Shown: positions 17,315 through 39,262 of the stretch, piece after piece
How the letters are laid out: every line of letters starts with the position of its first letter
How positions within the stretch are numbered: the stretch's first letter is position 1
NCBI GenBank assembly: GCA_035573895.1
Contig: DATLZR010000094.1
Location: forward strand, 1-59,348
DNA: 59,348 nucleotides
Origin: Blastocatellia bacterium
GTDB lineage: Bacteria; Acidobacteriota; Blastocatellia; HR10
Direction: 5' to 3'
Notes under the pieces: generated by a model
What the model saw: only the letters and a program-made list of their open reading frames with translations
Told to the model about the DNA's origin: nothing
Database searches by the model: none
Translations under genes and position numbers: made by a program

Positions 17315-17418
17315 TCACGGGCGTTCCCAAGCTTCTGCACTTCGTCGTGCAGCTTCCCGCACCCCACTTGGCACCTTGCACACGACAAATGCCCATCGCC
17401 CAAACTCCCCATGATGGT

Positions 17419-20097: not shown

Positions 20098-20566
20098 CGG
20101 GCGTGTCTCCCTTTAAACATTCTATTTCGCTGAGTTGCCGGATGTAATCCTGCGGAAGATTGTGCTCTTTGGCGCCCTTAATTAAACACTCGAGGTAATC
20201 GCAGCGTGGCCTAAGGCCCTCTTTAACCTTGCTGTCCGCAGCGATGTATGACATAGCCTTTATCACGTCATGTTCTGTTTCTACTTGCAATCTAACACAC
20301 TTATAATGTTCTGGTACGCCTTCGTAGCGGTTCAATTTCCGAAGCTCCTGCTTGCTGAGTAAGTAGAGAACCCCGTATACGATGCCTCGCTCACTCGGTC
20401 GAATATTGGCGTACCCGCTTTCATCATTGGCAACCTTGTTGAAAACCAGTTCGTAGCCGCGTATCATACCAACTGCCCATTGCATACTGCTCCGACCAAT
20501 TCGAGCCTCAAGGCGCTTGGAGTCCATGTTCGATCCATAAGCGAAATACCAAACGAGGAATTTCAT
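20087..20566 (-). CDS. gamma-glutamylcyclotransferase-like (AIG2/GGCT fold) protein
   Basis: 159 aa. The hallmark substrate-loop motif YFAYGSNM is at residues 7-14. GIVYGVLYLLSKQELRKLNRYEGVPEHY matches the region around the family's catalytic Glu, here probably in KLNRYEG. Such enzymes make 5-oxoproline from gamma-glutamyl compounds, but the fold is also found with unknown roles in mobile and defence loci. It overlaps the start of the Res gene by 11 bp and follows the DCD-AAA gene by about 80 bp, so it reads as part of the island transcript. Its link to defence is not established. Confidence 0.85.
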   Translation of the reverse strand: MKFLVWYFAYGSNMDSKRLEARIGRSSMQWAVGMIRGYELVFNKVANDESGYANIRPSERGIVYGVLYLLSKQELRKLNRYEGVPEHYKCVRLQVETEHDVIKAMSYIAADSKVKEGLRPRCDYLECLIKGAKEHNLPQDYIRQLSEIECLKGDTPGAG

Positions 20567-20645: not shown

Positions 20646-21968
20646 TCATGGTGAACTTATCCTCTTCTCCCGGTCCTCGATTTCTTTCAATTGTTCTTTT
20701 GATACTGATGGCCCTGACAGCTTTTTTTCGATTCCTTCTAAAATATCTTGCAGCGTAATAGGCAACAAATGATCCTCTTTTATTTCTTCATCCGGATCCC
20801 TTCCTAAGCTTGGATTCCTTTGTATTTGTCGCATAAACACCTCATGAGCCACTCGATCAATCAGAAGTCGAATATCCGCTCCTGTCCACCCATCCAACTT
20901 GTCGGCTAATTCCTCAAGGGTCTTATGGTCTCGAAGTTCACGACTAATTGGTCTATTTGCCAAAGCTGAGCGTAGCAATTCCATACGTGCTTCTCGGTCA
21001 GGTAAAGGAACCTTTAAACACTGATCAAAACGCCCAGGGCGCAAGAAGGCTTCATCAATGTTTCCAGGCTTATTTGTAGCACCGATAATGAGGACCGGCG
21101 CATTTTGCTCAAAAACTTTGGTAAAAAGACGCAGAAAGGCGGGTATAATTCGTTGCATGACCGTAGACGTTTGCACGATTTCTCTAGCAGCAAGCAAGGC
21201 ATCCGCTTCATCAATGAAGATGACAACGCGAGGTTTCTGAAGGGCTTCCTGAAATATCCGTTCCAGGTGCTGCTCGGGTTCACCGGGAAAACCTCGCACA
21301 ATGGAAGGACTAATTTCGATGAACTCCGCATCTATTTCCTTGGCAGTTGCTTTGGCAATAAGGGTCTTACCCGTACCTGGAGGTCCATACAGAAGTAAAC
21401 CTCCACCCACTCGCAATCCGTATTTTTCCGCAACCCTGGGGTTAAGGAACGGTTCGATCATCCGTTCTCGTATAAACCTCTTCACATCCTCTAGTCCTGC
21501 GACGGATTGAAAACCCTCTTTCGGTCTATAACTAACCAGCGCCTCCTGAGAAGGGAGCTCCTTGATGGGAAAATGCGCAAGAAGTTTACGAGTTATATCA
21601 GGGCCATAGGATGCAAAAGCTGGAATTTGCCACCCAGCCCTTGTTCGGGTCATTGTGAGACCGGTTGGTTTGAAGATCTTCGTTCTGGCGTCGCTAACGG
21701 CTTTGATCTCGCCTGCAGGTTTTACTCGTATTTGGTAAGGAAATGCCCCACCCCATGCCTCGGGTTCCAAGTTCCAACCAGGGTCTGACACGGCAACGAA
21801 AATGCCGAACAGCACGTCTGCCTGACAGTTGTAAAGGAAGCAGATATCTCCTTCCCTTACTCCTTTCCGATAATAATCAATTTTATCACCAAAAAGATTA
21901 CGTTCGAGGCACTCATCTTGAGTTTTATTGGAACAGATCCAGATCGAACAATTTATTTCGTTGCTCAT
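20646..21968 (-). CDS. DCD/EVE-like domain fused to CDC48-type AAA+ ATPase
   Basis: 440 aa from ATG 21968, chosen for its strong AAGGAGGAGAAC ribosome site; a start 24 codons upstream is not supported. Residues about 5-125 read like a DCD (development and cell death) domain: WICSNKTQDECLERNLFG, GDICFLYNCQADVLFGIF, and WGGAFPYQIRV. DCD is known mainly from plants and belongs to the PUA/EVE-like folds. Residues about 150-400 are an AAA+ module: LLYGPPGTGKTLIAKA (Walker A), VVIFIDEADALLA (Walker B), IGATNKP (sensor 1), RPGRFD (arginine finger region). The C-terminal tail is charged. It may sense a modified base or nucleotide and remodel a partner; this is inference from the domain class and the island context. 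Confidence 0.85.
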   Translation of the reverse strand: MSNEINCSIWICSNKTQDECLERNLFGDKIDYYRKGVREGDICFLYNCQADVLFGIFVAVSDPGWNLEPEAWGGAFPYQIRVKPAGEIKAVSDARTKIFKPTGLTMTRTRAGWQIPAFASYGPDITRKLLAHFPIKELPSQEALVSYRPKEGFQSVAGLEDVKRFIRERMIEPFLNPRVAEKYGLRVGGGLLLYGPPGTGKTLIAKATAKEIDAEFIEISPSIVRGFPGEPEQHLERIFQEALQKPRVVIFIDEADALLAAREIVQTSTVMQRIIPAFLRLFTKVFEQNAPVLIIGATNKPGNIDEAFLRPGRFDQCLKVPLPDREARMELLRSALANRPISRELRDHKTLEELADKLDGWTGADIRLLIDRVAHEVFMRQIQRNPSLGRDPDEEIKEDHLLPITLQDILEGIEKKLSGPSVSKEQLKEIEDREKRISSP

Positions 21969-22142
21969 GTTCTCCTCCTTTTGATGTCTTATCATTTTTC
22001 CTTTCGTCAGCCAGAAGGGGAGGGAGGTGGTGCCGAGCACCCTCCGCCCATTGAGGCAGTCCGAATAGCTTCAGTACCGTTTGTTCTGTCGGACCAAGAA
22101 AGGGCATGTTGTTACGGTCGTGCCCTGAGAGACGGACCGATT

Positions 22143-22366
22143 TCAAAGCCTGTCTATTGTCTCTAACGGCATCACCCTCACCGCCTCGTTCCCTCGGGAA
22201 TCCATCACCTTGATGCCGGTGCACCTGTGCTCGCCGGATTTGAAGCGGAACGAGACAGTGCCGTGCGTGCGCTCAAATGCTTCAGGTTCAATTGTAGCAC
22301 GAAAGGCATTCTGAAGTTTTCCCATGCATTCGAGTCGCCGGGGAAGAAGGCCCGCTGGATCTGCAA
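22143..22366 (-). pseudogene. C-terminal remnant of a Mod-type DNA methyltransferase
   Basis: Two overlapping frames give one sensible tail. The first reads QRAFFPGDSNAWEN; after a one-base slip in an A-run (22317-22320) the other frame continues KLQNAFRATIEPEAFERTHG, TVSFRFKSGEHRC, GIKVMDSRGNEAVRVMPL, and stops at 22143. In my knowledge of the family, endings of the form FFPGD.AW, GTVS.PF..GEH and KV.D.RGNE belong to the large Mod proteins encoded beside Res of the 17419 type. It begins immediately after the DUF499 stop codon. The matching N-terminal remnant is at 32918-33433. Confidence 0.55.
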
Positions 22367-22381
22367 GGACGAGTAACCATC

Positions 22382-25027
22382 TCAGCTCAGTTTTTCTTCC
22401 TCCCACTCAAAGGAAATGCCGTAGTCTCGAAGTAGCTTCTCAATCTCCGCTTTCTTTTTCGCCAGCTCTCCGGTAGGCTCGCGTAGCTCGACGTTAACCT
22501 GTGCGCTTGCGTTCCTCAGCAGATCAACGACCTTTTGGACGGGGTAAAAATGGCTGGTACTTGTCTGTAGACGAAGGCCTGATACTACTGGTCGCTGTCC
22601 CTCACCCGCAGGTTCGACCTTCTCCAGTCCTATATGTTCCTTCGATACGATCGTGACACGGTCCTCTAGAAGCACCCCCGCAGGGACCAATTCACCGAAG
22701 TAAACCCGCCCACCCACTTTTACCCCGAACCTCGCCTGTTTGACGCCTTCCTCAACGGCACGGGAGATGGCTTGCTTCGGCTCGGTGAGCAAGGGAGCCC
22801 CCGGTGTGCCTACAAAGGCACTTGCCACCTGGTCCAATGAAATTTCCCTGTCCTTCGCAAGTATTTTTTCCGACAAATACTCCGGACTCACTTCCTTCAG
22901 GAGGAGTCCCTCCTTTTCCAAACGGGCATATACGGCTTCTGCCAGGGTCTTCGCCTTAACCCCTTCAGGGATAGGTCCGGCAGGCAATTCGGAGATGCCT
23001 TCGGGGCTGGGGCGATAGATGCGACTGTATGCAGTCAGCAAAAGCCCCTGAAGCCCGGTCGAAGCGTCCTTGCATTGGGCATCCATCTGCTGGCGGTCTT
23101 CCTCGTCCATCTGCCTGAAAGACCCGGAATTTCGGATGGCTTCCAATGCCAGCACACGACGCATTCTGGCCCTAAGTTGTGAGAGATTGCCCGCCTCGGG
23201 CACGAGAAAGACCAGCATGTTCTTGTGACTGCGGTAGGCTTCACCCGCCTGTTGGGTCACCTCTTTCATCCAGGCTTCCGCCCGGGATCGCTCATGCAGC
23301 TCCAGGGGCAAAACGACAAGCGTTGGCTCTGCGCGGTCCGGCACGCCACGATGATCGAGAGGGGCGACGATGACGGTCAAGGGTGTCTTCCCTTTCCCGG
23401 CGATCTTCTCTAACTCGTTCTTGAGTCCTTCTTGCACCTGCTCTTCGGTGATATCGGACTCATAATCAAGAATAATCTTGTTGAGGTTGGGCTTCGCCTG
23501 GAAGCGATAGCGTTTGTCGCGATAGACCAGATACCAGAGGCGTTCGCGCAGGTGGCTCAACACCTCTGAGATCTGCGCCGGATTGATGTCCGGACGTAAT
23601 AAAGCTGTTCGGATTTCCTCCTCGGTCGCCCCCATATCCCGAGTTGCTGCGGAGATGCTGAAAAGAAAAGCACAGGAAGCCGCCCCTTGAGCCAGTTTTT
23701 CCCGCCGATACTCCTGACCCAGGTCTCTATCAATCTCATCCGCCCGCTGAAGCACATCTCCGGTCACAACTGCATCAAAGCCGCTATCCAGGAGTTTGAC
23801 AACCTCCGCCCGTATGTGCCGGTCCGCAAGGTCTGTATGATGCGGCTGTATGAGAAACGCCGAGCCAGGCCGTTGATTCCAGAGCCTTCTAATCACCATC
23901 GCCAGCAATCGCAAAGCGCCTCGGGTCCGCTGAAACTGCGGATGCGGACCCCAGCGTTCGTAAAGCAAACCGATCAATTCAGGATGGAAGGGATAAGCCT
24001 TAAGCATCCGCCCCCTGTAATCGGATGTGCGCACACGGTCGGGAAAGAAGCGGGCATATTCGTTGTAGTAATCTGCCATAGCGTTGACGACGCGCTTGAT
24101 CTCGCGTTCTTCGCCCAACCATTTGAAGAGCCGCCGTTGCAGGACTCCAAAGATTTCATCTTGAGCGACGGGAGTTTCGACCAGCTCGACCCGCCCCAAG
24201 ACCTTCTTCGCATACTGGAAGAGACGCTCGGCCGCCTCTTGATTCTCTTCGGGAATCTCCAGAGATGACGCCGGCAAAGAAACCACCAGCACGGCTTGAG
24301 GAGAGGCGCTCACCGCCGCCGTCAGCTCCTGCAGAAAGACGCCGGTCTGCTCCATCAAGTTACTGTCGCCAACCTTCACCGCCTTTGCTTTCACCAGGTA
24401 GTCCAGGAGTTCGTCCATAAGAATGAGCGCCGGCTGGGATTCGTTAAGCAGCGCGGAGAGTTTCCCTGCCCCCGGCGCTGTGCGCGCTTCATCGGAGTCG
24501 CGCATGCGCTCATAGAACGCCTTGCCCCCGAGCCGAAACGCCAGTTCGCCCCAAAGCGTGAGGATTTTGCGCCCCTCCACCTCGCGGCCATTTCTGGCAT
24601 CCAGTTCCCGACAATCTAAGACCGCTACGCGGATGCCCGGCGGAATCGTCCGCAGGTTGAGACGTTCTAAGATCGGGCGCACCGCCTCGGCCTCTCCGGA
24701 GGCGTCAGGATGCTTGCAGAGATGGTAAAGCGCCGCCATCGTGTGCGTCTTGCCTCCGCCAAAGGGCGTTTCTAGCCTCAATATGGGAGCGCCAACGCCG
24801 CCTGCAGCGCACAATCGCCCCAAGACGCGCTCCATCAAATTCGCCAGGCTTCGGGTCATGAAGGTTTTGACGAAAAATCGCTCCGGGTCGGTATAATCCC
24901 TATCGGCAGTCCCTTGCTCCACATGGTGCAGGCTGACCGCAAAAAGCGATGGGTCAAGGTCTTTCGCGAACACATCTCCATGAGGTTCACAAATCTCCCA
25001 TACTCGCTTTATGTTTTTGCTTGCCAT
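22382..25027 (-). CDS. DUF499 family AAA+ ATPase (COG1483-type), defence-associated
   Basis: 881 aa. The N-terminal third is a P-loop ATPase: ETPFGGGKTHTMAALYHL (Walker A, about residues 83-100), and LILMDELLDYLVKAKA as the Walker B-like Asp-Glu. The family-specific start IWEICEPHGDVFAKDL and ADYYNEYARFFPDRVR match DUF499 proteins. The C-terminal half is Glu/Lys-rich with coiled-coil tendency. DUF499 genes are regularly found beside DUF1156 methylases in thermophiles and are thought to belong to multi-gene defence modules; exact activity is unknown. It begins 13 bp after the end of the DUF1156 reading frame, so the two are in one operon. Confidence 0.9.
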   Translation of the reverse strand: MASKNIKRVWEICEPHGDVFAKDLDPSLFAVSLHHVEQGTADRDYTDPERFFVKTFMTRSLANLMERVLGRLCAAGGVGAPILRLETPFGGGKTHTMAALYHLCKHPDASGEAEAVRPILERLNLRTIPPGIRVAVLDCRELDARNGREVEGRKILTLWGELAFRLGGKAFYERMRDSDEARTAPGAGKLSALLNESQPALILMDELLDYLVKAKAVKVGDSNLMEQTGVFLQELTAAVSASPQAVLVVSLPASSLEIPEENQEAAERLFQYAKKVLGRVELVETPVAQDEIFGVLQRRLFKWLGEEREIKRVVNAMADYYNEYARFFPDRVRTSDYRGRMLKAYPFHPELIGLLYERWGPHPQFQRTRGALRLLAMVIRRLWNQRPGSAFLIQPHHTDLADRHIRAEVVKLLDSGFDAVVTGDVLQRADEIDRDLGQEYRREKLAQGAASCAFLFSISAATRDMGATEEEIRTALLRPDINPAQISEVLSHLRERLWYLVYRDKRYRFQAKPNLNKIILDYESDITEEQVQEGLKNELEKIAGKGKTPLTVIVAPLDHRGVPDRAEPTLVVLPLELHERSRAEAWMKEVTQQAGEAYRSHKNMLVFLVPEAGNLSQLRARMRRVLALEAIRNSGSFRQMDEEDRQQMDAQCKDASTGLQGLLLTAYSRIYRPSPEGISELPAGPIPEGVKAKTLAEAVYARLEKEGLLLKEVSPEYLSEKILAKDREISLDQVASAFVGTPGAPLLTEPKQAISRAVEEGVKQARFGVKVGGRVYFGELVPAGVLLEDRVTIVSKEHIGLEKVEPAGEGQRPVVSGLRLQTSTSHFYPVQKVVDLLRNASAQVNVELREPTGELAKKKAEIEKLLRDYGISFEWEEEKLS

Positions 25028-25039
25028 CTCGGCACCCTC

Positions 25040-27748
25040 CTATATCGGTAAACTCAACTGCCGGCGCTCTTCAATGGCCCGCATCGCCTGCTTGGTCAAA
25101 GTGGTCCGCGCCGGAAGCAGTTGCCCAAGCGCAGTAACTTCATCCGACAACCCGCTTTTCTCCCATTCGCGCTCGCTTTCGTAGAGCGCCTGAGCAGCTC
25201 GCCAGAAAGCGTGGTCTTCATCGTGAAAGCCCCCGAGGGCCAGAAAACTCGTCAAGCCCTCCGTTTCGCCGCGCTTCCAGAAAAACAGCGCAAGATGCAG
25301 CACATCAATCAGGGGAAGGGTATGAACTTGCCCGTCTTCGAGCGCCTTCCTTAGCGGGCGTAACGAGTTTTCATCCCGTAGCCTTTCCCAGAACGTGGGG
25401 AGTGTCACCTGGTCTCCCTTGCGGGATACCAAGCGTTGCTCGGTGCTCAGCCGATCCAGTTCGGCTCCGAGCGATTTCGCCAATTTGTTCGCCTCATCAA
25501 AGGAAAGCGTCTGGTCACCGTAAGCCCAGCGATAGAGCACATAAAGGCGCGTGGGAGCATCAACCAGCCCCAGCCCTTGACCCAGGCGTTCCAGAGCATA
25601 GTTGGCTACCAGCGTGCGCACTTCATCGAGGAGCTCTTCCACGCCGACCTCGCGGCCGTCGGGTCTGAGCACCTTGCGGTAACGCCCGAAGACGCCCACG
25701 GCCGGACCGATGGCGGAGATGAAAAAGTCCGCACCGCGAATCCCCGCATCCCAGAACTGCATAAGGCGCTCGCGCACGACTTCTCTCAGCTCGCCTCGCA
25801 CCTCGTGATACCAGCCGGTGGGTGCCTCTGGGGACCTTCGGCGACAGGTCATCAGGATGGTGCTTTGCACCGCGCCTTTGCCCCGTTGATGGGTGGAGGC
25901 TTCCATCTCCGTGTGCACGGGCCAGGAGGCTGTGGGATAAAGCCCCGCATCCAGAAGGCTCTGGATGAGGCGTTCCCAGGCGGCTGTGGAGCGATGGGTG
26001 AACATGACCACGCAGATCCCTTCGGGCTTGAGGACGCGGTAGATCTACTTGAAAGACTGCTGCATGAGCCTCCGGTAATGGGCTTCGGCGATCTGCTCGC
26101 CTCTTTTGCCGCCGCCGAAGCGGGCGGGGTTAACGACCGCTTCCTCGTCCTTTGGCGTAAGTTCCGTCTGGAAAGCCTCAGGGTAAAGATCGCCCACCGC
26201 GCGCCGCAGCCAGACATAGAAGAAGTCGGAAAGATCCGCATAGGGCACATTGTCCGCATAGGGCGGGTCAATAACGACGGCGTCAAAGGTATCGGCGGCA
26301 AAGGTAAGGGAAGTTGCCGATCCCAGATGGGCACTGCCAATTTCAGGGGTGTGGCTTTCGCGTTGACAAACCGTCATAATCCGCTCTAAAGATGCCTGCC
26401 AACTTCCAGAAGCGCCGGCGACAGTATTCGCTTCCGCGTATGACCACTGCATATGCAAGTTGTGTCCAGAGAAGGTGTTCCACATCGTCTCGGCTCGGTT
26501 ATCCCATCCTGACAGGAGGCCGTTGTAGTTCTCCACATTTCCCATCGCAAGCCCCAGATATGTCCCCACCGCCTTCGCGAACTCAGCGTCGCCGGTCTCA
26601 CGCAAGATTTCCTGATGTGCCGCCCGCACCCACTTGCCGAAGGTGCACAGCGCCAAAAGCTGGCGGGGATTGAAAAGTTCGTACCATTTTTGAAATCCAT
26701 AGCCACGGCCACTTACGATATTCGGATTGTGCTGATCCATCGGCTCCTCTGGTACCCAGGATAGACCGAATGCCCAGGGGGAGGGTGTCTGGAGGAGTTT
26801 TTGCAACGCTTCTTCCGCTTTCTGGAAAGCTGCCAGGTCCACATCAGTTGCCAGGCGATAGTTTCGCCCTTGCCCTCTGCCCCGTGTTGTCACCACTGCC
26901 ACCAGGCGATGACCCATCCGTCCGGCTTGCGCTTCCGCCTTCACGTATTTGTCCTTCGCTGCGCTGCCGCAGAGGAGACAGACGGCATTAGCACGCCGCA
27001 CCGTGCCCTCTGATGGGTCAAAGTCGAGCTTACGGTCCTGTACCACGGTGAACTCCACCCGCTTTGCCTGGCGGTCTACGAGGGGCTTTAGCGCCACCCG
27101 CTTGTTGGCTTTGCGGGCCAGCCAGAATTGACGGAAGAGCTGGATTTCCGCGCCGCACGAGGGATTGGGACAGCGAATGGTGCGGGACCAGATGTAGGCG
27201 ATTGGCGTCTCACTGTTGACCTTCGGATAAAACTCCGCCAGTTCCTTCCGCGCCTGCTCCAGCACCCATTCACCCCAGCGCTTCACTGCTTCCACAAGCT
27301 TGTGTCCATAGCGCTGAGGGTATTCGATCGTCGCCTTCAGGATGAGGTAGGCGACAGGGTTATATTCCCCGGCATAGGCTTCACAGCCGAGCCTCAGGGC
27401 CTCCAGGGGAATGGAGCCGCCGCCGGCAAAGGAATCCAGCACCTTCGGCCGGGAATCCGGAAAGCGCTTGCGGACGAGGGCTCGCGCCTGTTCGAGGAGG
27501 TAACGCCCCGCCGAATCGCCGTCATGCACCCCCCACTTGCAGAGGTTCGTAATGAACTCTTGCGTAACGTCATCGCTTTCAGGGAGAAGGGCTCCCAGCA
27601 CGGCAGCGCGGGCGACTACCAGAGGTCGGCGTGCCCACCAGACATGGAGCGTGGAGATATGCCCATGCCTGATAGCTTTCTCGCGTCTCGCCTCTTTGGA
27701 GAGGTACTGAATTGGCAAAGCCGACTCAATCAAAAATCGCTGTTCCAT
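25040..27748 (-). pseudogene. DUF1156 adenine-specific DNA methylase, interrupted by in-frame TAG
   Basis: 902 codons read continuously except for one TAG at 26045-26047. The first part (567 aa) starts PIQYLSKEARREKAIRHGHI and WWARRPLVVARAA, contains the SAM-binding DSFAGGGSIPLEA, zinc-ribbon pairs CPNPSC and CLLC, and the catalytic VIDPPYADNVPYADLSDFFY. The second part resumes directly after the TAG with IYRVLKPEGICVVMFTHRS, the normal continuation of this domain. In the family a Glu (GAG) would be natural at this site, so one base change explains the stop. It is either a decayed gene, a split but functional pair (restart at the GTG near 26011), or an error. Partner of DUF499. Confidence 0.88.
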
Positions 27749-27813
27749 GACTTTTATCCTCCTTTTGCTGATGATTGCGCCCAGCCTAACCCCGTTGGTT
27801 GTGGTTCAAGCCC

Positions 27814-27889
27814 GAGTTATTGACCTCTCAATTATTGACTCGAATTGAATGAGGAAGGTCAATAATTTTCTCAGACGGGTCAATAACTC
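27814..27889. promoter_or_regulatory. nested inverted repeats of TTATTGAC, candidate operator
   Basis: Outer pair GAGTTATTGACC (27814-27825) and GGTCAATAACTC (27878-27889) is a perfect 12-bp inverted repeat. Inner pair TTATTGAC (27832-27839) and GTCAATAA (27858-27865) is a perfect 8-bp one. Four half-sites straddle the stop codon of the AlbA-type gene, 66 bp before the DUF1156 start. Part of the sequence is coding (Ile-Ile-Asp), so chance is possible. Confidence 0.45.
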
Positions 27890-29531
27890 TCTTTCGTAAA
27901 GAATACCGCCTGCCGCGTTTTTCTCCGTGGGGCTTCAACCACCCTAGTGCAACAAGTCGTTGGGCGATTTTTCGAGCCTTAATGAGCGATACTCCAAGAG
28001 CCTGGCGAATGTCCTCGTTTTTGACAAACCCTTTCTTGTGCAAGATCGGTTCCAGCGCCACTAACTCCGGAGGCTTTTCCACAGGCGTTTTGGACGGCTC
28101 CTCCACCACTGCATAGATACGACCTTTCGGCCTGGTGAGGCGAACAATGCCTTTACGCATGAGTTCCTTGATGTCGCGGGCAGCGGTGTAGATGTCTACG
28201 CCCACGAGTTTTTGATAGGCCCTGCTGGTAAATCGGCCGCCGTGCTCATGGGCATAAGCCAGAAGCCGAAGTTGATTACGACTCAGGGCTTGACCTTCAA
28301 ATCGTTTTAGCCATCCTACGGTCTGGGGGCTGAAAATCGGTGTGCTTTGCAGGATGACGACGAATCGGCCGCCCTCCAATCGGAACTCGGGCGGCTGCAG
28401 CCATTCCTGTTGCATTACTTCAAACATGCGGGGAATCCCCTCGCCCAATTCTCGCATGTAGCCGAACTCCGTTAGCACTCTGACGACGCGCGGGTTGCGG
28501 GAGGCATGAACCCGATTCCGTTTGAGTAGCTGTTCCAGTGTGACGGGTTCAACTAACTCTCCCGGGCTCGAAATTTCCATTCGGTCGTCAAAGAGATGGA
28601 CTTCAATTTGTGCGCCCTCGATGCCGTAATCGCGGTGGGCAACGGCGTTGACGATGGCTTCCTGCCATGCGAATTCGGGATAGGCTAACCTTTCCTCAAA
28701 GAATAGGTCCACGAGATGTTGACGCTCGGGTATGTGCTGACGGATTTGTGCGTGAGCATTTTCAATGAGGCGAACGAGCGGCATTCCCTCTATCCGAAAG
28801 CGCTTCTCAATGTTCAACTCGGCGCCCGTTCGTCTTTCGGTGCCTCGCCAGCGAATAAATTCGATCCCACAGCGAGGGTGCCAGCGAGAAGGGTCTTTCC
28901 CGAACAGGAGCAAAGCAGCCAATGTCAAGCGAAGTTGCCCATTAACCCTTTCAGCCAGCCGGTAGTGAACAAGGGTATCCTCAGGTGACAGGTTCACCTT
29001 CCCTCGCTGTGCCAGCTCCTCCACTAAGGGAAGGTCTAGATCGTTAAGAGTGGCATTCGCAACAAATTGGATTTCTCTTGCTCGCTGTAAGCGAGAAGCT
29101 TTCATTGCATCTATGTCCTTTGCTGAGAACGGCAGATTCTGCGCCCCTATCCGGAGCAGGTAGCGGCCGTCGGTCAGTTGGTGCACCTGAGCGCTCCAAT
29201 CGGTCTCAAAGACCCAGACCCGTTGACCCTCTAAGGTAATTTCTCTTGGGCAGAACGATAGGCGTGGTTGGATCAAGCCCCTCACTTGCTGCGATGCCGT
29301 GGAAAGATCGTACCGCGAAGGGACTCCTGCGTCGGTTCCATCGTCCTCCAAGCCGAGGACGACCGTGCCGCCATCAGCATTGGCCATGGCAACCAGAGTC
29401 TCGGCGACATCTCGCAAAGAATCTTTGAATGAGCGGGGTTTGAGCTGTCCAGTAGAGCGGTCATAGCAACTCTTGCGCTCTAAAAATTGACCTTCGGGTT
29501 GCTCCCTTAGCCAATCCCATCTGCTGGACAT
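27828..29531 (-). CDS. AlbA_2/Schlafen-type ATP-binding protein with winged-helix domain
   Basis: 567 aa. The N-terminus carries the AlbA_2 (Schlafen-like) domain: EGQFLERKSCYD, AETLVAMANADGGTVVLGLED (about residues 45-65), and YLLRIGAQNLPFS. The middle contains an HATPase_c_4 type region, WQEAIVNAVAHRDYGIEGAQIEV, followed by MELGEGIPRMF-like sequence (MRELGEGIPRMFEVM). The C-terminus has winged-helix stretches (TAARDIKELMRKGIVRL; RQALGVSLIKARKIAQRLVALGWL), so DNA binding is likely. Relatives act as regulators or RNases in stress and defence settings. The ATG lies three bases after the SNF2 gene's stop, showing tight coupling. Palindromic repeats at its 3' end might be its own operator; that is inference. 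Confidence 0.88.
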   Translation of the reverse strand: MSSRWDWLREQPEGQFLERKSCYDRSTGQLKPRSFKDSLRDVAETLVAMANADGGTVVLGLEDDGTDAGVPSRYDLSTASQQVRGLIQPRLSFCPREITLEGQRVWVFETDWSAQVHQLTDGRYLLRIGAQNLPFSAKDIDAMKASRLQRAREIQFVANATLNDLDLPLVEELAQRGKVNLSPEDTLVHYRLAERVNGQLRLTLAALLLFGKDPSRWHPRCGIEFIRWRGTERRTGAELNIEKRFRIEGMPLVRLIENAHAQIRQHIPERQHLVDLFFEERLAYPEFAWQEAIVNAVAHRDYGIEGAQIEVHLFDDRMEISSPGELVEPVTLEQLLKRNRVHASRNPRVVRVLTEFGYMRELGEGIPRMFEVMQQEWLQPPEFRLEGGRFVVILQSTPIFSPQTVGWLKRFEGQALSRNQLRLLAYAHEHGGRFTSRAYQKLVGVDIYTAARDIKELMRKGIVRLTRPKGRIYAVVEEPSKTPVEKPPELVALEPILHKKGFVKNEDIRQALGVSLIKARKIAQRLVALGWLKPHGEKRGRRYSLRKRVIDPSEKIIDLPHSIRVNN

Positions 29532-29534
29532 CGG

Positions 29535-32500
29535 CTACTCCGTCCCCTTCCATTGTTCAATGACAACCTTAATGACATTTACGACGGGTTGAGCACTCAG
29601 GCGAGTTGGGTTCTGAACGGCGTGTAATTTGGGTTCGGTCAGAGCGTTTTCCACGACGTAGAGCCAGTATGAATTGCCAAGGCGCTGCGCCATCTGCCAC
29701 TCGTGGGCTGTCAATTCTACAGGTCCTGTTTCGCTAAAGGCTTTGACCTCTATGTAGCGGATTTCTTCAGTTCCGACAGACAAAATATCATATCCCAAAA
29801 ACTTCTCGGAAACATCTTGGGGTTCCCGTCCATGCTCCCGTTCGTAACGCATTGCTTCGGCCATGCCGGCCTGCTCCACCTGCCGCTTGAGGTCTTCAGG
29901 TTCCGGAGGCGGTCCGGGAAGTTCCACGATTTGTTTGGGCACGATGAGAGCAACGGCAACCAGTTCCGGTTCTAAGAGCATAAGGGTTCGCTCTTTCTCC
30001 AGGGCCTTCAAGCGTTCTCCTCTTTCACGGACCAGCGCTTTGAGGTTCTCTTCCTCTTGGTGAATGGCGATACGCATATCCTCGCCCGCCTCGGCTCGTC
30101 GGTGGTATTCAAAGAGTTTCGCGTTGGATTCGGAAATCAATTGATCAAAGGAATGCTCCAACCACCTCCTTTTGATTTGGCACTCACGGTCGCGGCGGGC
30201 CTGGGCTTCGTCCTGCAGTTCCCCTATCTGCTGGGTCACGTACTGCTGGACGATCCTCTGGACGGCCTCCAGGTTATCCACGGTTTCTGGGGGAGGCGAC
30301 CAGCCGTCAGGGACAGCCCGTAGCTCCCATAGCATTCGGGGGTCCACCTCACGGACTTCTTTGGAATGTCGGTCATAGAAGAGGGCCAATAGTCTTTCAA
30401 TGACAGGTTTCCCATGGCCGTCCTGGACCCGCCCTCGAAAGAGCCAGAGTTGACCATCACGTCCCTTTTCATCGGTGAGCACCCCCTTCACGGGGAGGGA
30501 CGATTTGTTCAGAAAATGCTCGCAGAGGGCTTCGAAGAGTGGATGTCCTGGTGCGAAGAACTCTGCGTTGCCCTCTCGTGCCTTAGAGCGTTCAAAGGCA
30601 ACCCTCAGACCTCGCGCGTAGCTTTCCCCTTGCAGGTGATGCTGGCGCACAAATTCGCGAGGGACGCTTATGTGAAAGATACCGTCTTTCTTCCGATCGG
30701 GGTCCAGGCGCCCACCGACGATGCTCACCGCTAACTGAGTGAACCGCTGAACGTCCCAAGGCACCAGGCGCCTCAGTCGGGAGTCCTGGTCGTCCCGGAG
30801 CACAGCCGATCGGTCAATGTGATGTCCCGCCAGGGCATTTTCCTCCAAGGCCCGGCGGAACTCTTCTAACCGCTTTTCCACATCTATGTCAGTTACCCGC
30901 TCAATTTCACCAGTCCTCTCCTCCACGATGGCTCGCATAATCATCTCTTCCAGTCGCACACCCTCCAGGAGCATTCCGATGACGTCGTATACGGTATCAC
31001 CCAGGCGCTGGCGCATCAGCTCCAGCTTCTGCAGTAGGCGTTGTAAGACCGTCCCCTCACGGGTCTCCGGGTAGAGCAGGTTAAAGACAAAGCACTCACG
31101 GGTCTGTCCGTAGCGGTGGATCCGTCCCATCCGTTGTTCCAGTCGGTTGGGGTTCCAGGGCAAGTCAAAGTTGACCATAAGGCGACAGAACTGGAGGTTG
31201 ATACCCTCGCCGGCGGCATCTGTGGCCACCATGACCTGGACCCGATCGCGGAAGAACCGCTCCTGCTCCACGCGGGCTTGCAAGTTCATATCCCCGTGGA
31301 TCACGGCCACAGGGAATCCCCACTCCTGCTCGAATTTGCGCTTGAGGCCATTTAAGGTGTCTTTGAACTCAGTGAAGACGAGGAGCTTTTCTTCCGGATT
31401 ATGGCGCAAGTGCTCCTCGACCACGCGGCGGAGTTCCTGGACCTTCGCCTCTTCGCCAGCCTTCTCCGCCTGGATGGCCAATTGAATGAGATCATCCAGT
31501 TCCCCGATTTCTTCCCGGAGTTCCTCCGGTGTCTCAGCGGCGGTCACGCCCTCGAGGCGTTCCTGAAGGCTCTCCCATTCGGCATCTGTCAGATCGGCCA
31601 GCTCAGCCAAGTTTTCCTCGTCTAACGCCGGCAGGGCTATTTCTTCAGCCAATCGCCTCTCCCACTCCCTCAAGAGGTTCTGCAATTTGGTGCGCCGACG
31701 GTGTAGCGACTCTCGGATGGCTGCAAGGCTTGATGAAAGCCTGCGTTGCAAGACCGTTAAGGCCAGGGCAACATTGCGACTTCGGCGGTCCGTTTTACCC
31801 GATACGGTCCTATACCAGCGCCGCACGTAAGCCGTGACACTTTCGTAAAGTTCTCGCTCGGCTGCTGTCAGGGTGATACTCAGTGTGCAGACCTCACGTT
31901 TCTTGAAGATTTTGCTCCCGTCCAGGTAAGTCACCTGCTCCTTGGACCGGCGCAGCACAAAGGGCAACCCATTCCCCTCTCGGGCTGCTTCCTTGAGTTG
32001 GGTTTCATTAAAGAAAAGCCGGGGTTCTAAGAGTTCTAACAGCAAAAAGTAAGCTGAATCATCGCCTTTATGAGGAGTAGCTGTCAAAAAGAGAACGTTT
32101 GTCGTCCGTGGGGCAAGGGCTTCGCCTAACAGGTAGCGTTGACTCTTGGCGATTTTACGACCGTAGCGGGTCGCCGAGAGTTTGTGCGCTTCATCAACGA
32201 TTAATAGATCCCATTGGCGCCGAGTGAGCACGTCCATAATCTCGCTCTTCTTAGCGAAGTCCATCGAGGTTATCAATTGAGGATTACGCTGGAAAAACTC
32301 GTCCGAATAGATATTGGAGAACACCCCTCGATCCAGGATCGTGAAGTCTTCTCGGAACCAATCCCCCAGTTCGCGGCGCCACTGGTCCTGCAGGTGAGCG
32401 GGGACGACAATCAAGACCCGTTGTGCCAGACCTCGCGCCTTCAACTCCTTAAGCACCAGCCCCGCCACAACGGTCTTACCCAGGCCGGGGTCATCTGCCA

Positions 32501-32888
32501 GCAAGAAGCGGATCCGGGAGCTTGGAAGGATATACCGATAGACAGCATCCACCTGATGGGGCAAAAGGTCCACCTGGGTCACGCTCACTGCATAATGGGG
32601 ATCGAAGGTGTAGGCCAAGCGCATACGCAGGGCCTCAGCATAGAGTAAGAAGGGGTCACGCGGCAAGAAGTCGGCTCGTAGAAAATCTTCTTTGAGCGTG
32701 GGCAACCGCTTTACTCGTTGGGCGAGTTCTTCAAGCGTGAGGACGAAGGTTTGCGCCTGTCGGCTCTGGCTGGAGATGACCCCAAGGGTGATCCGATCCG
32801 TGGAAGGTTCGGCTCTATAGACCTCGAAAACTTCCGGGTACGGCTCCAGGCGAATTCGCTCACCAGGTTTCGGTAGATCGTGGTTCAT
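29535..32888 (-). CDS. SNF2-family helicase with C-terminal DUF3883 (nuclease-like) domain
   Basis: 1117 aa, ATG with AAGG five bases upstream. Helicase core: FLLADDPGLGKTVVAGL (Walker A, here with Asp for the usual Glu-Met), LLIVDEAHKLSATRYG (DEAH), FLTATPHKGDD, then the second lobe VFTEFKDTL, AGEGINLQFC and RLEQRMGRIHRYGQ (motif VI). A long Glu/Arg coiled-coil follows (about residues 850-970). The end, LGYDILSVGTEEIRYIEVKA, fits DUF3883, a restriction-endonuclease-like fold with E-V-K. Such proteins occur with methylases in phage-defence loci (DISARM-like DrmD proteins are also SNF2 type). It is the first intact gene of the minus-strand block and starts 30 bp after a truncated Mod gene. Confidence 0.9.
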   Translation of the reverse strand: MNHDLPKPGERIRLEPYPEVFEVYRAEPSTDRITLGVISSQSRQAQTFVLTLEELAQRVKRLPTLKEDFLRADFLPRDPFLLYAEALRMRLAYTFDPHYAVSVTQVDLLPHQVDAVYRYILPSSRIRFLLADDPGLGKTVVAGLVLKELKARGLAQRVLIVVPAHLQDQWRRELGDWFREDFTILDRGVFSNIYSDEFFQRNPQLITSMDFAKKSEIMDVLTRRQWDLLIVDEAHKLSATRYGRKIAKSQRYLLGEALAPRTTNVLFLTATPHKGDDSAYFLLLELLEPRLFFNETQLKEAAREGNGLPFVLRRSKEQVTYLDGSKIFKKREVCTLSITLTAAERELYESVTAYVRRWYRTVSGKTDRRSRNVALALTVLQRRLSSSLAAIRESLHRRRTKLQNLLREWERRLAEEIALPALDEENLAELADLTDAEWESLQERLEGVTAAETPEELREEIGELDDLIQLAIQAEKAGEEAKVQELRRVVEEHLRHNPEEKLLVFTEFKDTLNGLKRKFEQEWGFPVAVIHGDMNLQARVEQERFFRDRVQVMVATDAAGEGINLQFCRLMVNFDLPWNPNRLEQRMGRIHRYGQTRECFVFNLLYPETREGTVLQRLLQKLELMRQRLGDTVYDVIGMLLEGVRLEEMIMRAIVEERTGEIERVTDIDVEKRLEEFRRALEENALAGHHIDRSAVLRDDQDSRLRRLVPWDVQRFTQLAVSIVGGRLDPDRKKDGIFHISVPREFVRQHHLQGESYARGLRVAFERSKAREGNAEFFAPGHPLFEALCEHFLNKSSLPVKGVLTDEKGRDGQLWLFRGRVQDGHGKPVIERLLALFYDRHSKEVREVDPRMLWELRAVPDGWSPPPETVDNLEAVQRIVQQYVTQQIGELQDEAQARRDRECQIKRRWLEHSFDQLISESNAKLFEYHRRAEAGEDMRIAIHQEEENLKALVRERGERLKALEKERTLMLLEPELVAVALIVPKQIVELPGPPPEPEDLKRQVEQAGMAEAMRYEREHGREPQDVSEKFLGYDILSVGTEEIRYIEVKAFSETGPVELTAHEWQMAQRLGNSYWLYVVENALTEPKLHAVQNPTRLSAQPVVNVIKVVIEQWKGTE

Positions 32889-32917
32889 CAGACCTTCCTA
32901 ATTCTTTTTCTTTGTGT

Positions 32918-33433
32918 TTAGTAATCGTACCAGATTTTTCGGCCGAGGTTCGCAAGTGAAGGAATCTTCTGATTTTGGACTTTGATTTGCTCTGGGTCGT
33001 GGGGTTTGTCCTTCACGTCGCCGCGGTCAGTGCCCAGTTGGAAGTTAGAGGCATATTTGATGCTGTAGGGCGGATTAATGTAAATCATCTGCACTTTGTC
33101 CGTCAGATCCCCTTTGACAAGGAGCGAGTTGATCACGGTGGGCGAATCGCCCAGAAGCCGGTTCGCCCGGCCAAGCTCGCGTTGATAGAATTCCACCAGC
33201 TTACCGGCGGACAAAGGCGTTTCGTCAAAAAGGTTGAGCTTTAGTGGCTCGGGACCGCGTTTGGTGTAGAGAGTTGCCTGTGTGGGAGCGGGTGCGCATT
33301 GCGAGCCCAACGGCCGTCTGGCGTTCGGGTACTTCTGCAACAGCGCATGAGGAATGACCACCGAGCCTCGTCCTTCAGCCGGGTCCTTCTCGCGCCCGTT
33401 TCGCTTCACGTTCTCTCGAAGCCTCTCTTTCAT
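32918..33433 (-). pseudogene. N-terminal remnant of a Mod-type DNA methyltransferase
   Basis: Read from ATG 33433 it gives about 171 aa: a variable N-terminus, LVEFYQRELGRANRLLGDS, then KVQMIYINPPYSIKYASNFQ and DVKDKPHDPEQIKVQ, after which homology ends and a stop follows. The NPPY block equals motif IV (usually DPPY) of N6-adenine/N4-cytosine methyltransferases that pair with Res of the type at 17419. A full protein needs about 700 more residues. The open frame continues upstream to 33826 but that part looks non-coding. It is cut off just before the SNF2 gene. Confidence 0.75.
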
Positions 33434-33671
33434 GGTGAGTGATAGGACAGCGACCCGTTGCTCCCGATCCTTTCCGCCACGAATTGTAATTGGAGTCACC
33501 CCAAAGTCAATAACTTTGATCCCCAAACACAAACATCCGTCAGACCGGTCAACGGAATCTCCCTCGAACGGCTTTGACCCCTGCGCGTTCCGTACCCGAT
33601 CTTTCAGTCGGTCAGGTGAGTTTTCGAAATGCCCACATTCCCTCCTTAAAGAACTCCTTGATCCGGTCCAG

Positions 33672-33982: not shown

Positions 33983-34324
33983 ATGACCATCAAGGAACGA
34001 CGAGTCAATGATGTTGTGATTCTGGATATCGAGGGGAAGATTCTACTTGGCGAAGGCGACGTCCAGCTTCGGGAAGCAATTCAGCGGCTGTTACAGTCCG
34101 GGGCGAAGAAGATCCTCCTGAATCTGGCCGATGTGCCCTACATTGACAGTGCGGGATTGGGCGAGATCGTTCGATGCTATACGACGACCCGACGTGAAGG
34201 GGGAGAATTGAAGCTTCTGAATCTCACCAGCCGTATCCGGGATCTGCTCACGATTACGAAACTGATCACCGTCTTTGAGAGTTTCGATACCGAGGAAGCC
34301 GCGCTGAAGAGCTTCGCCAGCTAA
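33983..34324 (+). CDS. STAS-domain anti-sigma factor antagonist (SpoIIAA/RsbV-like)
   Basis: 113 aa, a stand-alone STAS domain of standard length. The phosphorylation loop YIDSAGLGEIVR contains the expected Ser56. The start VNDVVILDIEGKILLGEGD and the ending LKLLNLTSRIRDLLTITKL match anti-anti-sigma factors. When its serine is unphosphorylated, such a protein binds an anti-sigma kinase and frees a sigma factor. No RsbW-type kinase or phosphatase gene lies beside it here, so its partner must be elsewhere. It is expressed from its own promoter, divergent from the defence island. Confidence 0.92.
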   Translation: MTIKERRVNDVVILDIEGKILLGEGDVQLREAIQRLLQSGAKKILLNLADVPYIDSAGLGEIVRCYTTTRREGGELKLLNLTSRIRDLLTITKLITVFESFDTEEAALKSFAS

Positions 34325-34360
34325 GCTCCTGTTTTCACCCGTCGGAGCGGGCGGCGTATC

Positions 34361-34795
34361 CTATCGTCCCGAAAGGATTCGCCACCGCTGCCGATCCATC
34401 GCTGTGGGAAGGGAAATTCGGCTAGCCCCTGCGAGTTTGGCCTCATCGAAAGCGGCAATCATTGCTTCGAATGGAGCTTCGGGTTCTGTATCAATGATCA
34501 CGGGAGTGTTTTTGTTCTGTTCGATCCGGGCCTTGATGGCCGGCCCGAGATCCTCGATGCGAATCGGTTGGTCGTTCAAACGATAGTCCGATGGACCCAG
34601 TACCCGGATGTAAAGCGCTTCTTCGGGCCGTACATTCACGATCAGGTTCGGGTCTTCCGGGGGCAATCCGAAATTTATTCCCTTGATGGCAGCAAAGGCC
34701 GCCGTCAGCATGAAGAAGATGATGAGCAGGAAGGCGATGTCGGCCATCGAGGCCGTGGGAATTTCGGCATTGACTTTTCGTCGAGGAACTTTCAT
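34361..34795 (-). CDS. exbD: ExbD/TolR family protein (second copy)
   Basis: 144 aa, ATG with AAGGA seven bases upstream. One transmembrane helix near the N-terminus, ASMADIAFLLIIFFMLTAAFA, carries the essential membrane Asp in SMADIAF. The remaining periplasmic domain resembles ExbD (PVIIDTEPEAPFEAMIAAFDEAKLAG). It works with ExbB to feed proton-motive force to TonB or Tol. It starts 4 bp after the upstream ExbD copy. Two ExbD paralogues behind one ExbB is a common arrangement in Acidobacteriota and Bacteroidota. Confidence 0.92.
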   Translation of the reverse strand: MKVPRRKVNAEIPTASMADIAFLLIIFFMLTAAFAAIKGINFGLPPEDPNLIVNVRPEEALYIRVLGPSDYRLNDQPIRIEDLGPAIKARIEQNKNTPVIIDTEPEAPFEAMIAAFDEAKLAGASRISLPTAMDRQRWRILSGR

Positions 34796-34799
34796 CGTC

Positions 34800-35234
34800 T
34801 CATCCTTGTCTCCGGGGACCCCGGGCTTCGGTCAGGAAGTAGACGTTTCGCGCCCGGCTTAAGCGAAGCCGTTCCAGGCAAAATTCAATATAGCGGTAAG
34901 CGGCCCGTCGGTCGCCTTTGACGACGAAAGATCGAGCAGGATTTTGACGGAGCACCTCGGCAATAAACCGATCGAGCTGATCCACATTCTCAATCGTCTG
35001 AGAGACCTCTCCGTCGGTTGCTTTGATCACTCCTTCCGCCGTGACCGTCAGCAAGGCGCTGTTTCGGACGATTTCTTCCCGGTTCACCGACGCGGGCAGG
35101 TCCACGACCGTTTGATCGGTGGAGAAGACCGTCGTGACCAGGAAGAAAATGATGAGCAGGAAGGCGATGTCGGCCATCGAGGCCGTAGGAATGGTGGCAC
35201 TCAAGCGATGGACGTGCCGTCGGACGCGAATCAT
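34800..35234 (-). CDS. exbD: ExbD/TolR family protein (first copy)
   Basis: 144 aa. It shares with the following gene the segment IPTASMADIAFLLIIFF, including the proton-channel Asp, but the periplasmic halves differ (here FVVKGDRRAAYRYIEFCLERLRLS). It could form a mixed dimer with the second copy inside the ExbB pentamer. The gene is 63 bp downstream of exbB. No tonB gene is visible in the window. Confidence 0.92.
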   Translation of the reverse strand: MIRVRRHVHRLSATIPTASMADIAFLLIIFFLVTTVFSTDQTVVDLPASVNREEIVRNSALLTVTAEGVIKATDGEVSQTIENVDQLDRFIAEVLRQNPARSFVVKGDRRAAYRYIEFCLERLRLSRARNVYFLTEARGPRRQG

Positions 35235-35297
35235 GATATTTCGTCTCCGGTTGCCACTCCGACGCCCGGATCTCGCGCCATCCGGGGCCGGGACTTC

Positions 35298-35993
35298 TTA
35301 GTTCGCTGCCGCCGCATAACTGGACGGCCCCTGCTCGATCTCCTTGATCGTTTCCAGGAGCATCGCTCCGGCCGTCTCCATGTTGAGCGAGATCTTGCCC
35401 ACGCGCGTCACGAAGTAGTTGTAGGCGGCTTGAGTGGGGAGTGCGATGATCAACCCGGCGGCGGTCGTGATGAGGGCTTCAGAGATTCCGCCCGCGACAG
35501 CTTTCGGATTTCCCAGGCCCACTTCCGCCACCTTGTCGAAGGCGTTGATCATGCCGGTGACGGTTCCAAGAAATCCAAAGAGCGGAGCAATGTTGGCGAC
35601 CGTCGCCAGGATCCAGAGAAATCGCTCCATGCGAGCGACCTCCTGGGTGGCCACGGCTTCCATGGTTCGCTCGATCTCCTCGATGGGCTTGCCGATCTGA
35701 AGCAAACCCGCTTTTATGGTGTTGGAGATGGGGCCTCCCATCGCATCGCAGATTTTGGTCGCCGTCTCCAGATCTCGCGCATGCAGGGCTCGACGCACCC
35801 GACCGACGATCTCCGCCATATTGTCCTTGATGCGATGGAGCGCCCAGGCGCGTTCGATGATCACCACCAGGCCTGCTAGCGAGCACAAAAGCAGCGGCCA
35901 CATGACCGGCCCGCCGCGCACGAAGTAATCTTTCAGTGTTCCCCAGCCAAAGAGTAACAGGGGAGTGTGAAGAACCTCAGGTCCGATGTTCAC
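35298..35993 (-). CDS. exbB: MotA/TolQ/ExbB proton channel protein
   Basis: 231 aa. Three hydrophobic segments: PVMWPLLLCSLAGLVVIIERAW (about residues 30-50), NIAPLFGFLGTVTGMINAF (about 135-160) and ALITTAAGLIIALPTQAAYNYF (about 175-200). The family signature lies in the second and third segments (TVTGMI, TTAAGL). It is the stator of the TonB or Tol motor and leads an exbB-exbD-exbD operon. The TonB-dependent receptor at 3486 is a possible client. Pairing with TolA/TolB instead cannot be excluded, since neither is present. Confidence 0.93.
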   Translation of the reverse strand: MNIGPEVLHTPLLLFGWGTLKDYFVRGGPVMWPLLLCSLAGLVVIIERAWALHRIKDNMAEIVGRVRRALHARDLETATKICDAMGGPISNTIKAGLLQIGKPIEEIERTMEAVATQEVARMERFLWILATVANIAPLFGFLGTVTGMINAFDKVAEVGLGNPKAVAGGISEALITTAAGLIIALPTQAAYNYFVTRVGKISLNMETAGAMLLETIKEIEQGPSSYAAAAN

Positions 35994-36205
35994 CGTTTCC
36001 TTCTCCCTTCGATTTTTAGCACCGATTTTAATTTAGCGTGCTCCAATGAAAAGTCAAGCAACGCCATTCGATGATGAGAATGTCCCCCTCCGGGTGCGAT
36101 CGCGTTTTCGGTGTTTCCCTCTTACCGCGCGTCTTTCTCTTAATCACCCGTTCTGACCCGGGGGACTTGACGTGGGGAAACGCCAACGTCTCCGATCTCC
36201 TTCGG

Positions 36206-36619
36206 TCACTCACCGATGATTTGCACGATGATGCGTCGGCGTCGGGGACGAGTATCGAAATCCACAAGCACAATCTGTTGCCAGGTACCGAGGAGCAGCT
36301 CCTTTTTGCGAAAGGGGACCGTGAGCGAAGGGCCGATGAGCGATGCCCGCAGGTGGCTGTGTCCATTATCGTCAATGGTGTTGTGCCGATAAGGGTGATT
36401 TTCCGGTATCAGCCGACGCACAGCATCCACCAGGTCGGCGACGACGTTCGGCTCGTATTCGATCGTCGTAATGCCTGCGGTCGAACCGGGAACGAAAATC
36501 GTCACGATACCTGATCCTGCCGAGCTTGAAGCGACGATCCTCGCAACGTCCGCGGTGATGTCTTTAACTTCGTCCCGACCGCGCGTTTCGTATGTCAGCT
36601 CCCGTGTTTCGACCGTCAT
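36206..36619 (-). CDS. YjbQ/UPF0047 family protein
   Basis: 137 aa from ATG 36619, which fits the family start (MTVETRELTYETRGRDEVKDIT). Conserved marks: VTIFVPGSTAGITTIEYEP, HPYRHNTIDDNGHSHLRASLIGPSLTVPF and LGTWQQIVLVDFD. The His and Asp residues in the middle block form the presumed active site. A secondary thiamine-phosphate synthase activity has been reported for members, but the true role is open. It stands alone between exbB and serC. A start 29 codons upstream is possible but breaks family length. Confidence 0.92.
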   Translation of the reverse strand: MTVETRELTYETRGRDEVKDITADVARIVASSSAGSGIVTIFVPGSTAGITTIEYEPNVVADLVDAVRRLIPENHPYRHNTIDDNGHSHLRASLIGPSLTVPFRKKELLLGTWQQIVLVDFDTRPRRRRIIVQIIGE

Positions 36620-36997
36620 AGAGAGCCTAATGCTACGTGATGAAGCACAGGTTTTCAAACCGCTCCCGCCCGACTTCTTCGTCAGGGGCAGACCGACACC
36701 ATCCACCCGACAAGACCTCCTCGCGTGGGTTGGAACACGGAAATGGGGTAATCGGACCGATCTCCACCTGGCCCATCACCGAGAATGTCTACAAGCAGTT
36801 AGTCCCGGTTCGAAGGTAAACGCCAGGGAGCGTCTCTGGGGAGAGCGGGCCACTACCCGGAGAGGGAGCGCGGAGGTTCACCCTTTTGCGGCGAGTCAGG
36901 CTGGGAAACACGGGCCTGCACTCGTCCCCGGTGAATTTCCGGCTGTCCTGACCGCTTGGGGTTGCCGAATGTCTTTTCTCCCCCGGCGGATTCCACC
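36620..36997. other. intergenic region before serC
   Basis: About 380 bp between divergent yjbQ and serC. I find no gene or structured RNA in it apart from the serC promoter at its right edge. Confidence 0.5.
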
Positions 36998-37003
36998 TAT
37001 AAT
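36998..37003 (+). promoter_or_regulatory. -10 box of serC promoter
   Basis: Perfect TATAAT 25 bp before the serC ATG; no strong -35 hexamer is seen at 17 bp. Confidence 0.4.
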
Positions 37004-37027
37004 GACCGGTCAATCGGAGTGAAAGCG

Positions 37028-38131
37028 ATGACACATCCGCGAGTTTACAATTTCTCGGCGGGACCGGCGATGCTCCCTCTTTCCGTGCTTCAGCAGGCAC
37101 GGGAGCATCTCATCAGCCTTCCAGGGGTCGGCATGTCCGTTTTGGAGATCAGTCACCGGTCGAGATGGTTCGAAGAGATTCTGGAGGCCGCGGAGGCGAA
37201 TCTGCGTAAGCTCCTTGGTATACCGCCCCACTATCACGTGCTCTTCCTTCAGGGAGGGGCCAGCCTCCAGTTCTCCATGGTGCCGATGAATTTTCTCCGG
37301 GGACGTGGATCGGCTGATTACATCGTGACGGGCTCCTGGGGCGAGCGAGCTGTTGCCGAGGCCCGTCGCGAAGGACGTGTGCGCATTGCCTGGAGCGGTC
37401 GGGACGAAGGCTATGTCCGCGTACCCTCTCCATCGGAACTGGCGGTTGATTCCTCAGCCGCGTACGTTCATTTCACGTCAAACGAGACGATTCACGGCGT
37501 TCAGTTCGCATCCGAACCGGAGGTCGGCGATGTCCCGCTCATCTGCGACGCCTCTTCGGATTTCCTTTCGCGTCCGCTTCAGATCGAGCGATATGCCCTG
37601 CTCTATGCGGGGGCGCAGAAAAACGCGGGGCCGGCGGGGCTCACCATCGTCATCCTCCGGGATGACCTGCTGGAAGCAGCCGCCCGCAATCTTCCATCCA
37701 TGCTGGATTATCGCGTTCATGCGAGCCACCGGTCGGTATACAACACACCTCCGGTCTTCGCCATTTATATCACCAAGCTTGTCACCGACTGGTTATTGGA
37801 GGAAATCGGCGGCCTGGAAAAAATGGCGGCCCGTAACCGGGAAAAGGCGCGTCTGCTCTACGACACGATTGATCGTAGCGATGGCTTTTATCGCGGCCAC
37901 GCGCGACCCGACAGTCGCTCGATGATGAACGTGACCTGGCGATTGCCCTCTGTCGCTCTGGAAAAAGAGTTTCTGCGCCAGGCCGAGCAACGGGGACTCT
38001 ATGAGCTGAAAGGACATCGCTCCGTCGGGGGATTGCGAGCGTCGCTTTACAATGCCATGCCCCTGGAGGGTGTGCGCGCGCTGTGCGACTTCATGAAGGA
38101 GTTTCAGCACGCTCACTCGGTCGCTCAATGA
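37028..38131 (+). CDS. serC: phosphoserine aminotransferase
   Basis: 367 aa from ATG 37028 with GGAG nine bases before it; a start 24 codons upstream would lie before the -10 box and is rejected. VYNFSAGPAMLPLSVL at the N-terminus is the SerC signature. The PLP lysine is Lys198 in YAGAQKNAGPAGLTIVILR, the same number as in E. coli SerC. The enzyme makes phosphoserine from 3-phosphohydroxypyruvate and glutamate in serine synthesis, and also acts in the DXP route to pyridoxal phosphate. Neither serA nor serB is beside it. Confidence 0.96.
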   Translation: MTHPRVYNFSAGPAMLPLSVLQQAREHLISLPGVGMSVLEISHRSRWFEEILEAAEANLRKLLGIPPHYHVLFLQGGASLQFSMVPMNFLRGRGSADYIVTGSWGERAVAEARREGRVRIAWSGRDEGYVRVPSPSELAVDSSAAYVHFTSNETIHGVQFASEPEVGDVPLICDASSDFLSRPLQIERYALLYAGAQKNAGPAGLTIVILRDDLLEAAARNLPSMLDYRVHASHRSVYNTPPVFAIYITKLVTDWLLEEIGGLEKMAARNREKARLLYDTIDRSDGFYRGHARPDSRSMMNVTWRLPSVALEKEFLRQAEQRGLYELKGHRSVGGLRASLYNAMPLEGVRALCDFMKEFQHAHSVAQ

Positions 38132-39233: not shown

Positions 39234-39262
39234 TTGCTTCGATCTCCGACCTAGGCTAGTCT
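39234..39262 (+). promoter_or_regulatory. promoter for the BMC pentamer gene
   Basis: TTGCTT (39234-39239), 17-bp spacer, TAGTCT (39257-39262). Nine bases separate the -10 from the ATG at 39272, with no ribosome site, so a leaderless transcript is likely, as for the acylase gene at 983. Confidence 0.4.

Follow-up and report, generated by a model that had tools for sequence, protein, structure and literature searches.

The locus described here raises the question of how a defence cassette came to stand between two pieces of a methyltransferase gene that belongs to a different defence system. The window, i.e. the whole stretch of DNA analysed, is the entire contig C94 (DATLZR010000094.1, 59,348 nt) of a Blastocatellia bacterium metagenome-assembled genome (GCA_035573895.1; 3.9 Mb, 184 contigs). 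Turnover of defence islands is well known, but one seldom sees a replacement of one system by another in which the displaced gene has left both of its ends and a closely related genome retains the undisturbed site. We consider it probable that an Hma cassette took the place of mod in an ancestral type III-like mod-res operon, both ends of mod being left behind as relics. The Hma and mod-res systems themselves are already known; what is new is the repeated overwriting of mod by Hma. In the bacteria studied here, one defence system seems to be written over by another repeatedly at one gene, and what remains of the older systems documents this exchange.

Gene order of the island

The island genes form a single run on the minus strand. 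From 33547 down to 17330, the order is integrase fragment, N-terminal part of Mod, HmaA, Schlafen/AlbA_2 protein, HmaB, HmaC, C-terminal part of Mod, AAA-DCD gene, GGACT gene and Res. No Rfam match was found within positions 14000-36000 of the window. The flanks of the island (12609-16941 and 33983-43127) lie on unlinked loci in the relatives from genus g2, which places the island at the breakpoint of a rearrangement. Since the g2 genomes have the kbl flank and the STAS/ExbD flank apart from each other, the window's own empty site cannot be compared directly; an intact site was found in another genus (see below).

Two relics of one mod gene

The initial annotation described the ORF preceding the helicase gene as a Mod N-terminus with an NPPY motif, cut at 32918. 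The ORF is indeed related to Mod, with the similarity limited to positions 32981-33283 (minus strand), which correspond to aa ~83-188 (191 by profile) of the 962-aa Mod from genome G009 (61-63% identity, E=2e-29 to 5e-30). The rest of the ORF, 33278-33547 (minus strand), is an integron-integrase relic (IntI aa ~152-244; TIGR02249, E=7.7e-12; tblastn match to IntI of G017) fused in frame to the Mod relic, so that Mod codons 1 to about 82 have been lost as well. The integrase relic is an internal fragment of only ~90 aa and does not include the catalytic C-terminal part of an integron integrase. Motif IV in the Mod relic is mutated, reading NPPYS versus DPPYG in the intact relatives.

The Mod C-terminal tail, which had been placed at 22143-22366 directly after the stop codon of the DUF499 gene, was recovered as Mod sequence beginning ~15 nt or less from that stop. 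Its span is 22161-22369 (minus strand; aa ~886-955), and because its tblastn matches are spread over two different frames (22369-22286 and 22319-22161), it is frameshifted. The search of the window's own genome with the full-length G009 Mod and its profile retrieved both the N-part (aa 83-191, 63% identity, E=1.1e-30) and the C-part (aa 897-955 by profile, E=9.4e-12), and no intact copy of Mod elsewhere in this genome. No Mod was found in viral contigs. When each remnant was searched separately in the relatives, both led to the same genes, a 1,071-aa frame in G063 and a 965-aa frame in G009, and matched their opposite ends. By homology, the two remnants are real, far beyond chance, and are assigned to opposite ends of one Mod family rather than to different methyltransferase families. 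All that remains of a full-length Mod upstream of Res is thus aa ~83-191 and ~886-955.

The N-terminal relic shares 61-66% of its amino acids with the intact Mods, which are 89-92% identical to each other. At codon positions 1 and 2, the relic differs from the intact genes at 37-47 sites per 101 codons, while pairs of intact genes differ at 12-21 sites per 107 codons. These substitutions, together with the frameshifted C-part and the mutated motif IV, show that the window Mod relics are dead and evolve without constraint.

The Hma cassette

The proposal that Mod remnants bracket a block of SNF2, AlbA, DUF1156 and DUF499 genes was borne out, the block corresponding to HmaA, a Schlafen/AlbA_2 protein, HmaB and HmaC. 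It is, according to profile matches, an Hma system (BREX-related and centred on DUF499) accompanied by a Schlafen/AlbA protein. HmaA (29535-32888, minus strand; 1117 aa) is an SNF2-type helicase with a C-terminal nuclease-like NOV_C domain (PADLOC HmaA, E=2.6e-177; Pfam NOV_C, E=4.3e-20). The Schlafen/AlbA_2 protein (27828-29531, minus strand; 567 aa) also carries HATPase_c_4 and a winged-helix end (Pfam SLFN_AlbA_2, E=2.4e-14; HATPase_c_4, E=5e-25). HmaB (25040-27748, minus strand) matches the DUF1156 adenine methyltransferase family in two pieces (PADLOC HmaB, E=4e-106 and 8.8e-21) and is not intact: its two ORFs lie in one frame and are split by a TAG codon at 26045-26047, where five of the six aligned homologues have Glu. 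HmaC (22382-25027, minus strand; 881 aa) is a DUF499 AAA+ ATPase (PADLOC HmaC, E=1.8e-137; DUF499, E=2.8e-53).

Hma-like loci have recently been grouped as Type-1 BREX-related systems, and Schlafen companions are reported in many BREX and related loci and taxa (PMC12839542). The window cassette resembles these systems (PMC12839542; PADLOC Hma) in the order of HmaA, HmaB and HmaC and in its Schlafen companion, but differs from them in lying between the ends of a destroyed mod gene and in the in-frame stop of HmaB. The same order of all four genes was found, with frameshifts and without Mod flanks, in the Kapabacteria genome L056. Mod relics were likewise absent beside 12 other Hma loci, several of which have short flanks; the G006 locus runs off its contig. 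The cassette thus occurs elsewhere without Mod flanks, and neither outcome named in the initial annotation as refuting it (remnants from different methyltransferase families, or the same order and tails common as intact genes) was obtained.

Intact mod-res operons in relatives

Relatives with the mod-res operon were found, as the initial annotation had suggested looking for: G063 (Res cut), G009, G367 and G001 (mod truncated where the contig ends). Their intact Mod proteins have 962-1,059 aa, and the Res encoded downstream is 81-87% identical to the window Res. The gene order in G063, G009 and G001 is mod, a ~246-aa gene (TIGR04255 in G001), a ~180-aa gene, a 120-aa gene and Res. The 120-aa gene preceding Res has no Pfam match and is read as HEPN-like. 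The G367 operon is also intact, but its mod and Res are separated by a CBASS cyclase and a Cap15-type 2TM effector (L089:4577-6058).

A defence module nested inside another system's operon is also known from the anticodon nuclease PrrC, which sits in a type I hsd operon. The window resembles PrrC in hsd and CBASS in the G367 mod-Res operon in this respect. Nesting of the PrrC or CBASS type, however, keeps the genes of the host operon in place, whereas in the window the methyltransferase gene is destroyed.

Two more distant operons have GmrSD-type genes between mod and res (L107:10351-12141 and L108:4016-5779), where again the slot between mod and res is variable. In G420 (L091), the same mod-res locus is decaying, with Res in pieces, stops in the C-terminal end of Mod and a transposase-like ORF between them.

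Res and the genes between mod and res

The claim of a Mod-partner-like Res downstream at 17419 holds: the gene at 17419-20097 (minus strand) encodes a restriction endonuclease of the BPTD_3080 family (NF046055, 961 bits versus a cut-off of 800), the family found after intact Mod in the relatives. Its frame is shifted after aa ~876, and the last ~50 codons continue out of frame at 17330-17485. Conservation of these codons is still good, which points to a shift that is either recent or a sequence error. As in BPTD_3080-type mod-res operons, which are type III-like restriction-modification systems, Res passes NF046055 and the relics correspond to the Mod encoded ahead of a Res of this kind in G063, G009 and G367. 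The window differs from these operons in that Mod is reduced to two relics, the accessory genes are replaced and Res has a 3' frameshift.

In the place of the usual accessory genes, there are an AAA+ ATPase gene with a Dev_Cell_Death (DCD) domain (20646-22040, minus strand; AAA, E=3.8e-32; DCD, E=4e-14; 47% GC) and a GGACT/AIG2-like gene overlapping the start of Res (20087-20566, minus strand; GGACT, E=2.6e-13; AIG2_2, E=1.2e-18). The GC content of this region is 47% versus ~57% around it. The genes between mod and Res were exchanged separately from mod. The idea that the AAA-DCD gene regularly accompanies Hma or Res was rejected, since no match at E<=1e-60 was obtained among the other 395 genomes.

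The assertion that a four-gene cassette replaced the middle of mod thus stands in so far as opposite ends of one Mod are present; this was not a single simple insertion, with the Mod N-terminus lost and the accessory genes swapped. The further suggestion of nested defence-island growth was not supported. The lost N-terminus, the swapped genes of the mod-res operon, the frameshifted Mod tail and the lesions in HmaB and Res fit displacement and decay better.

Over 874 codons, the window Res has no such excess: it has 152 differences from that of G001, and its differences from G009 and G367 are no more numerous than those of G001 itself. By this measure, Res has retained its constraint during the decay of the Mod relics. 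This is unexpected for an orphan subunit; the relics and Res could have had different histories. One explanation would be that Hma replaced Mod functionally, Res being kept as the nuclease with HmaB as the protecting methylase until both were recently lost. The absence of excess amino acid changes in Res despite the decayed relics, the arrangement of all genes in one run on one strand, and the single recent-looking lesion in each of HmaB and Res agree with this. We nevertheless regard it as improbable, as no other genome with Hma next to a BPTD_3080 Res was found (the matches lie on different contigs) and a type III Res normally requires its own Mod for target recognition.

In the displacement that we prefer, the ancestor would have carried a type III-like restriction-modification operon composed of mod, accessory genes and a BPTD_3080 res, and the Hma cassette with its Schlafen companion would have replaced Mod codons ~192-880, with both ends remaining as relics. 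In an intact cassette, HmaB is predicted to mark host DNA, while the HmaA helicase and the HmaC ATPase would block unmarked phage DNA, and the Schlafen protein might act as a back-up RNase (family knowledge; PMC12839542). The TAG in HmaB and the frameshift in Res look recent or could be sequence errors. With HmaB interrupted and Res frameshifted, the locus as assembled is probably a decaying remnant.

Recurrence of the exchange and its junctions

The comparison with an intact site was possible for G008 and G009, two genomes of one genus. In G008 (L122:2431-3319, L078), Mod aa 1-44 followed by ~180-200 lie directly upstream of HmaA, and G009 keeps an intact mod-res operon at the site of the G008 Hma operon. 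The transporter genes adjoining the site are 88% identical in nucleotides and 92-95% identical in amino acids between the two genomes. HmaA of G008 has an in-frame stop, and a DarT-macro gene and an AAA_21 ATPase gene stand between its HmaB and HmaC.

A second pair of relics was found in the window's own genome on contig C155 (L119), which has Mod aa 124-184 at 9534-9716 and a frameshifted Mod aa 851-939 at 18478-18805. Between them are a C-terminal remnant of HmaA, which shares 64% identity with the corresponding end of the G008 protein, and the type III-C CRISPR effector genes Cmr1, Cmr6, Cas10c, Cmr4 and Cmr5. A piece resembling the end of type I HsdR was also seen there by eye. The replacement is thus recurrent: Hma cassettes of different lineages stand at the mod-res site in the window and in G008, and on C155 the two ends of Mod enclose what is left of HmaA together with the CRISPR genes.

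The window arrangement itself rests on one metagenome-assembled genome of 184 contigs, taken as assembled sequence, and a chimera of strain variants joined in the bin would be conceivable on these grounds. Such an artefact is very improbable: assembly cannot produce the sequence decay of the relics, Mod N, Mod C and Res follow one another on the same strand as in the intact operon, and the independent genome G008 has the same kind of junction.

In the window, on C155 and in G008 alike, the upstream Mod relic breaks off between codons 184 and 200. After the relic, the window and C155 share ~60 nt of non-Mod DNA (in the window, within the short stretch 32889-32980, minus strand, between the Mod relic and HmaA; local alignment), with p values of 0.002-0.006 that come from simple base shuffles and are a lead only. 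These ~60 nt are absent from intact mod and from G008. The common stop region and the shared stretch hint at a possible common junction or docking site. In the Hma tree, the window Hma groups with those of Kapabacteria and G032 and the G008 Hma with that of G024, in separate clades with full support, so that at least two Hma lineages are involved; the C155 HmaA remnant groups weakly with G008 Hma.

These junctions could descend from one ancestral Mod(N)::Hma junction in this order, inherited or copied, in which the cargo was swapped later (one Hma lineage for another, or Hma for type III-C) and the relics are shared old flanks. The coinciding ends of the relics, the ~60 nt common to the window and C155 and the G008-lineage remnant in C155 speak for such a history, which we regard as possible though not probable. 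It is opposed by G008, which does not have the shared stretch, by the fully supported separation of the window and G008 Hma clades, and by the 5' ends of the relics and the chromosomal neighbours, which differ between the loci.

A further reading would regard mod of the BPTD_3080 restriction-modification operons in this order as an exchange site with the break near codons 185-200, at which whole cassettes (two Hma lineages and a type III-C CRISPR module) were swapped at at least three loci, two of them sharing non-Mod DNA at the left end. We put this forward as a rather unlikely proposal. With its repetition within one order, a docking role of mod for defence cassettes can be put to a direct test through the break points. 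At the borders in the window and C155, no direct or inverted repeats or target duplications above chance were found, so the mechanism of exchange has to be deduced; illegitimate or short-homology recombination would be the most likely one.

Contig C123 (L121) of the same genome was considered as a third relic pair and rejected, its Mod-Res belonging to a divergent family. At 2760-10318, it encodes a divergent Mod that is split between two frames and a Res that is likewise divergent, together with a gene resembling the HEPN-like gene of 120 aa.
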